Assembly (NCBI RefSeq): GCF_003721435.2
Contig: NZ_CP054585.1
Coordinates: forward strand, 1,860,001-1,924,000
Source of the DNA: Halorubrum sp. CBA1229
Lineage (GTDB): Archaea; Halobacteriota; Halobacteria; Halobacteriales; Haloferacaceae
DNA: 64,000 bases
Direction of reading: 5' to 3'
Shown: positions 12,519 to 61,411 of the stretch, one piece after another
How the letters are laid out: the number at the start of each line of letters is the position of its first letter
Numbering within the stretch: the stretch's first letter is position 1
The notes under the pieces: generated by a model
The model's input: only the letters and a program-made list of their open reading frames with translations
Database searches by the model: none
Told to the model about the DNA's origin: nothing
Program-made: the position numbers and the translations under genes

Positions 12519-12921
12519 GCTATACGTCGCTTCCGAGGCGGTGAACACTTCCAAAGCCCCAGCCGCTCGGGTGTACGTCGTTGCTGACGGATCGACGGCG
12601 AACACTCCCAAAGCCCCAGCCGCTCGGGTGTACGTCGTTGCTGACGGATCGACGGCGAACACTCCCAAAGCCCCAGCCGCGAGGACGGCGCACGCTCGCT
12701 GCGCTCCTCAGTCGCTCGTTTCACTCGCTCCCTGCGGTGCTTACGTCGCCTGCGCCGTCCTCGCGACTGCCCCTTTGAGTCCCACCCGACCGCACCGCCC
12801 CGCACCTCACTCCTCCCCAGCCTCGTCGGACCGGCGCGGTCGCGCCGGTCCGACTCCCTCGCGCGCGCTGCTCGGCCGCGAATGCGGCCTCGCAGGCACG
12901 CGCCACCGCATTCATTTATAA
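12519..12921 (+). repeat. Interspersed structured element, copy 1
   Basis: Read on the plus strand, three tandem units carry CCAAAGCCCCAG at 12551, 12608 and 12665, exactly 57 bp apart. The first has a TATA-like CTATACG about 30 nt before it. Then come a perfect 15-bp long-range stem (12678-12692 pairing with 12751-12765) enclosing a variable part, the invariant CTGCCCCTTTGAGTCC box (about 12768-12783) and a 30-nt palindrome at 12825-12854 with one central mismatch. A terminal hairpin GGCCGC-GAAT-GCGGCC lies at 12874-12889 and ATTTATAA at 12914-12921. No coding pattern is kept between copies. It fills the gap between the zinc-ribbon gene and the monophosphatase gene. See the element findings. 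Confidence 0.85.
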
Positions 12922-23702: not shown

Positions 23703-24030
23703 ATTTATAAATAAACAGGGCGGTGGCGCGCGCCTCCGAGCGGCCGGAAGGCCGCGCGGAGCGCGTGCGAGGGAGTCGGACCGGCGCGGCCGCGCCGGTC
23801 CGACGAGGCTGGGGAGGTGTGAGGTGCGGTTGCGGTGCGGGCGGGACTCAAAGGGGCAGTCGCGAGGGCGAAGCACGCCGCAGCAAGCACTGGAAGGAGC
23901 GAACGAAGTGAGCGACTGAAGCGCGCAGCAAGGCGCGCGAGCCGTCGCGGCTGGGGCTTTGGAGGTCTTCACAGTCGATCCGCAGTCAGCTATTTATAAA
24001 CGAGGAGCTGGGGCTTTGGACGTATTCCCC
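23703..24030 (-). repeat. Interspersed structured element, copy 2
   Basis: The element reads on the minus strand. CCAAAGCCCCAG units end at 24019 and 23962, 57 bp apart. TTTATAAA at 23993-24000 is correctly placed upstream of the inner unit. Then come the variable region, the inverse of CTGCCCCTTTGAGTCC (about 23844-23859), a perfect 30-nt palindrome at 23775-23804, the terminal hairpin GCGGCC-GGAA-GGCCGC at 23740-23755, and ATTTATAAA at 23703-23711. The last box is 85 bp upstream of priS and could serve it. It occupies the divergent space between priS and the 48-residue gene. Confidence 0.85.
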
Positions 24031-25057: not shown

Positions 25058-25134
25058 CCGGTCGGTAGCGTCGTCGGTCTCGGTTCTCGCTCCTCTCCAC
25101 CGCCCGCTCTCTTCGTTCTCCCCTGCCCCTCACT

Positions 25135-25330
25135 GCCTCTCGCCCTCTTCTCAGCCTCTCGCCCTCTTCTCAGCCTCTCGCCCTCTTCTCAGCCTCTCGC
25201 CCTCTTCTCAGCCTCTCGCCCTCTTCTCAGCCTCTCGCCCTCTTCTCAGCCTCTCGCCCTCTTCTCAGCCTCTCGCCCTCTTCTCAGCCTCTCGCCCTCT
25301 TCTCAGCCTCTCGCCCTCTTCTCCGCCTCC
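25135..25330. repeat. 19-bp minisatellite, about ten units
   Basis: The unit CGCCCTCTTCTCAGCCTCT repeats head to tail from 25141 with identical copies to 25311, then a last diverged unit (CTCCGCCTC). One strand is almost entirely pyrimidine. It fills most of the 360-bp gap between padR and the aminotransferase gene (25058-25418) and ends about 60 bp before the latter's promoter (CTTTATTCC at 25389-25397). Confidence 0.95.
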
Positions 25331-25418
25331 CGTCGCGTCTCGCGAACTGCAGTTGGAGGTTTCTCCAACGACCGAGCGATCGCCTCGGCTTTATTCCGCG
25401 GGCGTGCGACGCGTCACC

Positions 25419-34146: not shown

Positions 34147-34606
34147 TATTTATAAACAACCCCGGCGTGCGCCTGCGAGCGGCCGTCAGGCCGCGAGCCA
34201 GCCCGCGAGGGAGTCGGACCGGCGCGGCCGCGCCGGTCCGACGAGGCTGGGGAGGCGTGAGGTGCGGTTGCTGTGCGGGGCGGGACTCAAAGGGGCAGCC
34301 GCGAGGGCGAAGCACACCGACGCAAGGACCGCAGGGAGCGAGCGGAGAGGGACCGGAGGTCCCTCTAGCAGCCGGCGCGAAGCGCCGGCGACACCGCGAG
34401 CGACTGAGGACCGCAGCGAGGTGCGCGAGCCGTCGCGGCTGGGGCTTTGGCGGTGTTCGTCGCACCGTCGACAGCAACGACGTATTGCCGAGCGGCTGGG
34501 GCTTTGGCGGTGTTCGTCGTACCGTCGACAGCAACGACGTATTGCCGAGCGGCTGGGGATTTGGAGGCGGTCACTCTGCTGACGACAGCGACCATTTATA
34601 TACACC
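34147..34606 (-). repeat. Interspersed structured element, copy 3
   Basis: The element reads on the minus strand and has three tandem units, with plus-strand CTGGGG motifs at 34439, 34496 and 34553, each 57 bp apart. The outermost has one T-for-C change (CCAAATCCCCAG) and a clear TATA box at about 34595-34603. The variable region carries two perfect hairpins, at 34346-34366 and 34371-34389 (GCCGGCGC-GAA-GCGCCGGC). Then come the CTGCCCCTTTGAGTCC box, a 30-nt perfect palindrome at 34213-34242, the terminal hairpin GCGGCC-GTCA-GGCCGC at 34179-34194, and TATTTATAAA at 34147-34156. It lies between the divergent hemC and sufS genes. Confidence 0.85.
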
Positions 34607-52262: not shown

Positions 52263-53371
52263 GCGGGCGCGACGCCGGCGACTGGGAGGAGGAGGTCGCG
52301 GAGTGGGACGAGGAGGTCTCCGAGTGGGAGGGGTCGAACGCCGCCGACGACCCCGACACCGCCGACGACTCCGGTCCCGTCGAGGAGGACCCCGACCTCG
52401 CGCCCGAGGAGTCGAGCCGCGTGCCGAAGGTGATCGCCGCCGGCCACATCAACTGGGACGTGACGATCCACGTCGACCGGCTCCCCGAGCCGGACGGAGA
52501 GACCCGGATCGAGCGGCTCGAGCAGTCCGGGGGTGGCAGCGCCGCGAACGTCGCGGTCGGGCTCGTCGACCTCGGCGGCCAGTCGGTCGTTTACGGGAGC
52601 GTCGGCGGCGACGAGTCGGGCGCGCTCGCGCTCCGCGAGCTGGCGAGCGCCGGCGTGGACCCCGGACAGGTGCTCGTCGACGCCGGCGAGCCCACCTCGG
52701 TGAAGTACGTGATCGTCGACGGCGGCGGCGAGCTCCTCATGCTCGCCAACGACGGCGCCAACGAGTCGTTCACCGCGGCCGGGCTCGACCGCGACACCCT
52801 GACGGCGGCCGACCACCTCCACCTCACTGGTCAGCAGCCGGAGACGGCGGCAGCGCTGGCGACCGCGGCGGGGGAGGCGGGCGCGACCCGCAGCTTCGAC
52901 CCCGGCCGGCGCGTCGGCGACCGGGAGTTCGACGCCGCGCTCCACGCGACCGACGTGCTCTTTCTAAACTCTCGCGAGGCCGACGCCCTCGCGGACTCGA
53001 CCGACATCGACCCGTGGGAGCCCGAGGACCGCGTCGTCGCGATCAAGCTCGGGAGCGAGGGCGCGACGATCCGAACCCCCCACGGCGACGTCTCTCACCC
53101 CGGCTTCGACGTCGATCCCGTCGACACGGCCGGCGCGGGCGACGCGTTCGCGGCCGGGTTCCTCGGCGCGGCCCTCCGCGAGCCCGAGATCGTCGACGGC
53201 GGGTTCTCGCACGACCCGCGCGACTACCAGGTCCCGCTGCTCGTCGGCAACGCCTGCGGCGCGATCGCGGCCGAGACGGTGACCGCCCGCGCGGACCTCT
53301 CGTGGGACCGGATCCGCGAGACGATGGGCGAGTCGCCCGAGACGGACCTGCTGATCGAAGTCCGCGTGTAG
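52259..53371 (+). CDS. PfkB-family sugar kinase, candidate ribose-1-phosphate kinase
   Basis: The product has 370 residues. After an acidic N-terminal extension of about 57 residues, the PfkB fold starts at KVIAAGHINWDVTIHVDRLP. SGGGSAANVAVGLVDLGGQS is signature 1, and DTAGAGDAFAAGFLGA carries the anion hole and catalytic Asp. By context it phosphorylates ribose-1-phosphate to ribose-1,5-bisphosphate for the isomerase. Other nucleoside or sugar substrates are possible from sequence alone. The last residues IEVRV and the stop lie in the first unit of an 18-bp tandem repeat that copies the stop codon. Confidence 0.87.
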   Translation: MSGRDAGDWEEEVAEWDEEVSEWEGSNAADDPDTADDSGPVEEDPDLAPEESSRVPKVIAAGHINWDVTIHVDRLPEPDGETRIERLEQSGGGSAANVAVGLVDLGGQSVVYGSVGGDESGALALRELASAGVDPGQVLVDAGEPTSVKYVIVDGGGELLMLANDGANESFTAAGLDRDTLTAADHLHLTGQQPETAAALATAAGEAGATRSFDPGRRVGDREFDAALHATDVLFLNSREADALADSTDIDPWEPEDRVVAIKLGSEGATIRTPHGDVSHPGFDVDPVDTAGAGDAFAAGFLGAALREPEIVDGGFSHDPRDYQVPLLVGNACGAIAAETVTARADLSWDRIRETMGESPETDLLIEVRV

Positions 53372-53479
53372 GTCGAAGTCCGCGTGTAGGTCGAAGTCCG
53401 CGTGTAGGTCGAAGTCCGCGTGTAGGTCGAAGTCCGCGTGTAGGTCGAAGTCCGCGTGTAGGTCGAAGTCCGCGTGTAG
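53355..53479 (+). repeat. 18-bp tandem repeat of the kinase gene's end, seven copies
   Basis: TCGAAGTCCGCGTGTAG recurs seven times at 18-bp spacing (starts 53355, 53373, 53391 and so on to 53463). The first copy encodes the C-terminus of the kinase with its TAG. Because 18 is a multiple of three, all seven TAG stops are in the kinase frame. It fills the space to the convergent lipoprotein gene. Confidence 0.95.
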
Positions 53480-53499
53480 GCGTTCGGACCGGCCCGCGA

Positions 53500-61017: not shown

Positions 61018-61411
61018 TATAAGTCGTTGCTGTCGGTGACGTAGAGACCACCTCCAAAGCCCCAGTCGCTCGGTTATAAACGATTGAATACAGATCGGCG
61101 GTGAATACCTCCAAAGCCCCAGTCGCGAGGACTCGCGTGACTCGCTGCGCTCCTCGGTCGCTCACTCCGTTCGCTCTCTGCGGTGTCGCCGGCGGCTTTG
61201 CCGCCGGCTGCCCGTGGCGCGTAGCGCCACGCTGCTTGCGTCGTCAGGCTTCGTCCTCGCGACTGCCCCTTTGAGTCCCACCCGACTGCACCGCACAGCA
61301 CCTCACACCTCCCCAGCCTCGTCGGACCGGCGCGGCCGCGCCGGTCCGACTCCCTCGCGCGCACTCCTCGCGCCCTGCGGGCGCTCGGAGGCGCGCGCCA
61401 ACCGCATTATT
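61018..61411 (+). repeat. Interspersed structured element, copy 4
   Basis: The element reads on the plus strand. Two units have TTTATAAG/TTATAAAC boxes at 61018 and 61075, each 36 nt before CCAAAGCCCCAG at 61054 and 61111, so the whole unit repeats at 57 bp. Then come a 9-bp long-range stem (61124-61132 with 61253-61261), two perfect variable hairpins, GCCGGCGGC-TTT-GCCGCCGGC (61188-61208) and GTGGCGC-GTA-GCGCCAC (61214-61230), and the CTGCCCCTTTGAGTCC box at 61263. A perfect 30-nt palindrome at 61321-61350 and the terminal hairpin GCGCCC-TGC-GGGCGC at 61370-61384 follow. The distal TATA of the other copies is degraded here (TTATTCGG). It sits between rpoF and the eIF2B-like gene. Confidence 0.85.

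Follow-up and report, generated by a model that had tools for sequence, protein, structure and literature searches.

We describe here a family of intergenic elements found across the haloarchaeal class; its members are modular, structured, and multicopy, and we lean towards regarding them as a mobile, multicopy structured RNA. Four copies of the element, which is noncoding and ~250 to 300 nt long, are present in the window analyzed, a stretch of 64,000 nucleotides from Halorubrum sp. CBA1229. The family was previously unnamed, and selection clearly acts on a folded RNA or a folded single DNA strand. Its hairpin arms tolerate almost any sequence provided that they pair, and it is the sense strand that is selected to fold. 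Between species, copies appear and disappear, and entire hairpins are swapped in orthologous copies.

Architecture and distribution of the element

In Halorubrum, a full copy consists of three hairpin domains (P1/P2, P3, and P4) placed around strictly conserved, unpaired, purine-rich motifs (Table 1). On the sense strand, defined as the strand reading GGGACTCAAAGGGGC, the 5' part comprises a TATA-like box, P1/P2, GAGGGA, P3, and GAGGCTGGGGAGGYGTGAGG, and this is followed by a 3' part with a G/T-rich linker (TGCGGT units), the P4 domain, and a tail of ~57 nt that is often tandem. P1/P2 follows the pattern GCGCGYGCC TSC GAG [P2] GAG SAGCRCGCGC, and P4 has the general form GGGACTCAAAG-GGG-CAGYCGCGAGG ... 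CCTCGCGRCTG-GGG-CTTTGG, which in copy 3 reads GGGACTCAAAG-GGG-CAGCCGCGAGG ... TCGCGGCTG-GGG-CTTTGG and includes a GGG/GGG internal loop. All four copies in the window share a single P3 type (GTCGGACCGGCGC), and an upstream TATA box is not clear in copy 4. Hairpins are located near both ends of the element, the ends themselves being defined only approximately.

Table 1. Coordinates of the four copies and their parts within the window
Feature	Position	Strand	Basis
Copy 3, TATA-like box TTTATAAA, upstream of element	34149..34156	+	sequence
Copy 3, P1/P2 hairpin domain	34164..34206	+	sequence; cis vs trans pairing
Copy 3, terminal hairpin GCGGCC-GTCA-GGCCGC, within P1/P2	34179-34194	+	
Copy 3, P3 hairpin GTCGGACCGGCGC-GGCC-GCGCCGGTCCGAC	34213..34242	+	sequence; cis vs trans pairing
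Copy 3, conserved unpaired motif GAGGCTGGGGAGGYGTGAGG	34243..34262	+	pattern search of class
Copy 3, P4 domain	34282..34450	+	covariance model and alignments
Copy 3, double-hairpin cassette C1, inside P4 interior	34346..34392	+	sequence
Copy 3, tail, ~57-nt units (GCGGCTGGGGCTTTGG ...) repeated past P4 3' strand	34435..34605	+	repeat family D9
Copy 1, entire element	12551..12921	-	
Copy 1, TATA-like box	12914-12921	-	
Copy 1, P2 tip GGCCGC-ATTC-GCGGCC (loop GAAT on +)	12874	-	
Copy 1, P3	12825-12854	-	
Copy 1, core	12805-12824	-	
Copy 1, P4	12665-12783	-	
Copy 1, tail units	to 12551	-	
Copy 2, entire element	23704..24019	+	
Copy 2, TATA-like box	23704-23711	+	
Copy 2, P2 tip GCGGCC-GGAA-GGCCGC	23740	+	
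Copy 2, P3	23775-23804	+	
Copy 2, core	23805-23824	+	
Copy 2, P4	23843-23962	+	
Copy 2, tail box	23993-23999	+	
Copy 4, entire element	61054..61396	-	
Copy 4, P2 tip GCGCCC-GCA-GGGCGC (loop TGC on +)	61370	-	
Copy 4, P3	61321-61350	-	
Copy 4, core	61301-61320	-	
Copy 4, P4	61111-61279	-	
Copy 4, double-hairpin cassette C1, P4 interior	61188..61231	-	sequence
Copy 4, single tail unit	61054-61071	-	

An earlier note on this DNA had described four terminal hairpins that differ from one another and are each perfectly paired. All of the quoted stems were confirmed from the sequence, and the four terminal hairpins represent the P2 tips of a longer element; the interval discussed there, 34179-34389, is a fragment of copy 3, which spans ~34149-34605. 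A long-range closing stem that the note had attributed to copies 1 and 4 is real and corresponds to P4, but it is not limited to those copies, as all four have P4. The variable-region stems at 34346-34389 and 61188-61230 are perfect, as had been stated, but not unrelated: both are variants of the same double-hairpin insert, cassette C1, which is built from a hairpin A, a GCAG-type linker, and CCGGCG..CGCCGG (CGTGGCGC-TAC-GCGCCACG-GGCA-GCCGGCGGC-AAA-GCCGCCGGC in copy 4).

At least four other cassette types recur. Within 464 kb of chromosome, C1 and C4 were located exclusively within or near elements. The positions of C3 to C5 are fixed (P4, the linker, and the 5' domain after P3), and C1 is found in P4 as well as in the 5' domain; the search seed for C2 was too short to be informative. 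C1-like cassettes without the element were found on plasmids of Natrinema, Haloterrigena, and strain DL31. A C3-type double-hairpin cassette was also seen at L276:3115-3171 and L273:1994-2058, where it lies in what appears to be the 3' region of an IS605 element and immediately past a TnpA gene; this supports the view that cassettes are independent palindromic insertions. The 57-nt tail units (34435-34605, 12551-12709, and 61042-61098), which begin with GCGGCTGGGGCTTTGG, are near-identical inside an array, often have a TATA-like box at their end, and resemble either elements with a deleted core or duplications of a minisatellite. Where the tail has a TATA-like box (36 copies), it is located exactly 30 nt past GGGGCTTTGG in 29.

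In other genera (L133-L136, L141-L145), 3' modules other than P4, for example, one ending in GGCAGTAGCTAGC, come after the 5' module (P1-P3 plus GAGGCTGGGGAGG). Head-to-head P4 doublets were observed at L164, L172, L212, L214, L286, L296, L300, L309, L331, L337, and L340, with a spacer of 23 to 35 nt that often contains a GGYTGGYCA-like semi-palindrome. Several doublets outside Halorubrum are closed on the outside by AACAGCCAGAAAGCCCC / GGGGCTTTCTGGCTGTT, and no target duplication is visible at these; MITEs, by comparison, have terminal inverted repeats in common with a transposon and usually a target duplication.

The Halorubrum sp. CBA1229 genome (G000) contains about 95 copies. The core pattern matched 92 times, compared with 0 matches for the reversed control, and the P4 covariance model matched 96 times at E <= 0.001, with one weak match on the second contig. 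All 92 pattern matches are located on the 3.2-Mb main contig and none on the 364-kb second contig, where 10.4 were expected. The core is present in 48 of 52 Halorubrum genomes, with up to 178 copies, and three of the four apparently negative genomes have one or two divergent P4-model matches each. Across the class, GAGGCTGGGGAGGYGTGAGG was found in 60/292 genomes and 14/77 genera (reversed-pattern controls near zero), and a core relaxed to GGGACTSAAAGGGGCNGNCG was found in 169/292 genomes and 51/77 genera (reversed controls at or near zero). The model of P4, the 3' hairpin domain, had matches in 47 of 53 sampled Halobacteria and none in other archaea of the phylum in a 295-genome search. When 84,980 species were scanned, the 80 records among the matches listed were all from haloarchaea. 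Viral contigs contained no exact match to the element, and phage records contained no match. Halorubrum plasmids carried one degraded copy, and the class-wide form, which is the form of other genera, was present on 29 haloarchaeal plasmids, mostly non-Halorubrum. In species of one Haloferax-like genus of the same family (L125, L126, L127, and L132), a P4 copy occupies a conserved syntenic site, with one gene ending before it and another starting after it.

Among ~90 copies, the commonest location is the convergent intergenic region (31 copies), the copies are oriented almost randomly with respect to upstream genes, and the neighboring genes follow no simple rule. Along the chromosome, the copies show neither regular spacing nor a strand pattern, and their distribution is random. 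Insertion into and replacement of promoters was considered and rejected, as just 32 of the ~90 copies have a co-oriented downstream gene.

Selection for pairing and the strand that folds

In this genome, the two halves of a hairpin fit each other far better than they fit the halves of other copies. Joining a 5' half and a 3' half from different copies cost 8 to 10 kcal/mol (0/60 permutations), and the comparison of cis and trans pairing gave z = -17.6 for P1/P2 (62 distinct segments) and z = -17.5 for P3 (58 distinct segments); for the outer P1 arms alone, cis pairing was also better than trans pairing (z = -5.5). In a class-wide alignment of 42 sequences with the structure given by RNAalifold, 94.9% of cells were paired, compared with 74.4% after shuffling and 33 to 42% after sliding, and double changes were found at 19 of 24 pairs. 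The covariation score was 0.504 versus 0.159 and was not reached in 500 shuffles. A home-made, R-scape-like test with a tree-aware null was applied to 114 P4 sequences; the top 7 of ~7,000 column pairs all fell inside the predicted structure, three of them at E <= 0.05, although this test assumes a single tree, which is violated by recombination between copies. The other three pairing tests are tree-free. Among 108 elements outside Halorubrum, 1,231 of 1,404 cells were paired, compared with an expectation of 586 based on the columns by themselves, and of the first 12 stem positions, most showed all four Watson-Crick types.

The mismatches identify the strand that folds. G.U outnumbered A.C by 74 to 24 in the 114 mostly Halorubrum sequences and by 60 to 9 in the 108 sequences from outside Halorubrum (expected, 139 to 123; P = 3e-9); the two sets share a few non-Halorubrum sequences. 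One strand, in the sense direction, is therefore selected to fold, and a cruciform or double-stranded signal is disfavored because it would have no cause to prefer one strand. Conserved non-pairs point the same way, namely, to a selected fold of a single strand. In the P4 stem, GGG opposite GGG is intact in 105/108 and 99/108 elements, tandem G.A pairs are found in one class of copies, and a central A.A or A.C mismatch lies inside a covarying interior stem. The retention of such non-pairs (GGG/GGG, tandem G.A, and A.A) argues against blind palindrome correction. The difference in folding energy between the sense and antisense strands (-23.5 kcal/mol in favor of sense; 66/66) was dropped as strand evidence, because dinucleotide shuffles gave a difference of -23.1 and composition hence accounts for all of the advantage.

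Turnover of copies and exchange of hairpins between sister species

Genome G000 was compared with that of a sister species (G009) over 400 kb, with flanks that are mostly 84 to 96% identical. The element is shared at 8 of 14 syntenic sites and lacking in G009 at the remaining 6, one of which has a terminal remnant. Target duplication is not evident at the syntenic sites, and TTTATAA is lacking at the empty ones. Of the 8 shared sites, one has an identical P1/P2, one a nearly identical P1/P2, and the others a clearly different one; P3 is outright replaced at 7 and has a flipped loop at the remaining one (TTATAT versus ATATAA). At the site at 34180, the G009 orthologue carries different P1/P2 and P3 hairpins. 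Nearly all of the hairpins compared at the shared sites form full stems in both species. Since orthologous hairpins are unrelated yet well paired, they were exchanged as entire modules, and most of the change was not stepwise. Presumably, the exchange occurs by conversion between paralogues, with pairing being kept by selection.

At one orthologous site, G009 has a 55-bp C3 cassette that G000 lacks, with only 2 bp of microhomology and without a target duplication. The P4 interior is inverted in three copies (L037, L107, and L119). In a single copy (L088), GGG was changed to CCC, by which the GGG/GGG mismatch was lost and a perfect stem was formed; this is the product expected of palindrome correction, and it is conspicuously rare.

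Whether the folded molecule is RNA or DNA, hairpins are replaced entire at orthologous sites of sister species with pairing retained. Covariation in this family is thus a product of module exchange and selection, not of compensation step by step, which bears on the reading of covariation elsewhere. The earlier note had viewed the changes as compensatory and the retained pairing as the mark of a selected RNA or single-strand DNA structure. That pairing is under selection is supported by the G.U excess over A.C, the conserved non-pairs, and the wider alignment, in which, together with the covariation analysis, stems were not broken at the chance rate. Much of the apparent compensation, however, arises from module exchange filtered by selection and less from paired point changes; the single strand is borne out, but RNA and single-stranded DNA are not separated by these results.

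RNA, mobile DNA, and known repeat families

Between RNA and single-stranded DNA, the excess of G.U wobble pairs and the promoter-like sequences favor RNA but do not prove it. A TATA-like box is located at most 40 nt upstream of 61 of 80 copies (76%; background, 2%); of the 30 copies between convergent genes, 21 have it at most 30 nt upstream. As the box is kept between convergent genes, where a gene promoter is not expected, it is probably the element's own. It lies ~18 nt from GGTGGCG. Archaeal transcription usually starts ~25 to 30 nt downstream of the TATA box, and with this spacing, the predicted start would lie within the P1 5' arm, so that the outer P1 arm would be cut off. The box was rejected as a marker of intact copies, since copies with and without it are equally well paired; this, like the spacing, weighs against a simple RNA gene.

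In the explanation towards which we lean, the folded molecule would be RNA, and the copies would together constitute structured noncoding RNAs of one family, or RNA-like parasites, spread via duplication or mobilization. Homogenizing exchange among the ~100 paralogues would swap hairpins, and selection would remove unpaired products, with a putative protein or partner RNA recognizing the fold by its shape and G-tract loop. Few structured RNA families of any archaeon would then be as abundant as this one, which would be class-wide and missing from the RNA catalogue, and the ~100 variants per genome would constitute a natural experiment.

The changes in presence and absence, the head-to-head doublets, and the cassette insertions would fit mobile DNA as well. 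The main alternative, possible though in our estimate unlikely, is that the element is non-autonomous mobile DNA of the IS200/IS605 or PATE type, with single-stranded hairpins of one strand recognized in trans by a Y1 transposase. TTTATAA-like boxes would then be target or end sequences, and the 57-nt tail units would be core-deleted, "terminal-only" forms. The intergenic location, the 6 of 14 syntenic sites that are empty in the sister species with no evident target duplication, and the C3-like cassettes seen at TnpA and apparent IS605 loci agree with this. So do the PATEs of Haloquadratum walsbyi, which lack target duplications, include a 390-bp element core-deleted to 52 bp, and have palindromes into which small palindromic repeats insert (PMC3119063). 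However, 10 of 51 Halorubrum genomes lack the Y1 transposase (PF01797), including G015 (89 copies), G029 (79), G001 (66), and G009 (47), and three pattern-negative genomes have it. A BLAST comparison of the 92 copies with ten TnpA-bearing loci gave 28 hits, and those inspected, in two loci, stemmed only from inserted C3 and C5 cassettes; of the element's own motifs, a lone GGGGCTTTC was found at the ten loci. Also counting against mobile DNA, known TnpA hairpins have a fixed stem sequence, which the element's arms do not, the empty sites lack TTTATAA, and phage records are without a match and Halorubrum plasmids almost so. If the element is nonetheless mobile single-stranded DNA, it would represent a repeat family recognized through shape and not sequence.

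More doubtful is an RNA-based modular repertoire at up to nearly 200 loci per genome, in which interchangeable hairpins around the invariant G-tract core would be, for example, shape variants sharing one protein partner; the family would then be neither a single-copy RNA nor an ordinary transposon. We consider it improbable that the element is a chromosomal DNA site, protein binding or cruciform forming in the manner of REP/BIME sequences, with a role in termination, insulation, or nucleoid structure. The frequency of convergent intergenic locations, the lack of pattern matches on the second contig, and the head-to-head doublets are consistent with such a site, but the strand-specific G.U excess is unexpected for double-stranded DNA or a cruciform. 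The near-random orientation to upstream genes, the lack of a strand pattern on the chromosome, the one weak model copy on the small contig, and the class-wide form on plasmids, mostly of other genera, also speak against it. It is highly improbable that the complementarity of the arms is maintained without selection, purely through gene conversion and quasipalindrome correction (DNA template switching at inverted repeats). While the flipped P4 interiors and P3 loop, the perfect stem of L088, and the exchange of entire hairpins at orthologous sites would suit this, correction would remove mismatches, and GGG/GGG, tandem G.A, and central A.A/A.C persist in the majority of copies in different genera; it would also be expected to yield perfect Watson-Crick stems without a preferred strand, contrary to the 60-to-9 ratio of G.U to A.C, and sequence beyond the arms is strictly conserved in 51 genera. 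A viral origin was rejected on the missing matches in viral contigs and phage records, as was a retroelement, since the reverse transcriptase domain PF00078 (RVT_1) was found in 0/51 Halorubrum genomes and control genomes were positive.

The element has the architecture of a structured RNA and the spread of a repeat. No Rfam family matches it above the gathering score, and among the papers found on haloarchaeal repeats, structured RNAs, and sRNAs, which were studies of PATEs and SMRs and general surveys of sRNAs, none described it or printed the core sequence. With bacterial REP, BIME, and REPIN sequences, it shares ~100 intergenic copies per genome, imperfect palindromes, and single as well as inverted double forms. 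REPs are 20 to 40 bp long, carry a GTAG- or CGTC-type tag, and often have a RAYT partner, whereas the element is a fold of 250 to 300 nt with variable arms and no known partner, and no such tag was seen at the hairpins of the copies read. Similar to candidate noncoding RNAs from comparative genomics, it is intergenic and absent from Rfam and has covarying helices and conserved internal loops; these candidates usually have one to few copies per genome, in contrast to up to 178 for the element, whose hairpin modules are, in addition, swapped between orthologues.

The closest described sequences are haloarchaeal PATEs and small mobile repeats, and the element is not assigned to any named family. 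Like PATEs and IS605-type elements (PMC3119063), it is noncoding, multicopy, and palindromic, with no target duplication seen, and like PATEs, it has what look like shortened, terminal-only forms of 50 to 60 bp and is a target of small palindromic insertions. PATEs can also be expressed as noncoding RNA, and one is strongly expressed in the Halorubrum virus HRTV-DL1 (PMC10544981). Unlike in these elements, neither IS605-like ends nor a link to TnpA was found at ten TnpA loci, the arm sequence is not conserved and the GGG/GGG loop is, there are three domains, and phage records have no match. The cassettes resemble SMR-A of Haloquadratum in that they enter palindromes of other elements without target duplication (PMC3119063), but they consist of two adjacent hairpins of ~45 to 60 bp in all, and SMR-A is ~110 bp long with terminal inverted repeats. 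A halite-community metatranscriptome includes 22 unassigned intergenic RNAs common to several Halobacteria (PMC7002113).

The window also contains an intergenic tandem array of ~15 units of 19 bp at 25071-25355 (repeat family D2) and, at or just past the end of a gene, an array of the 18-bp unit TCGAAGTCCGCGTGTAGG at 53337-53498 with 7 registered copies (repeat family D4).
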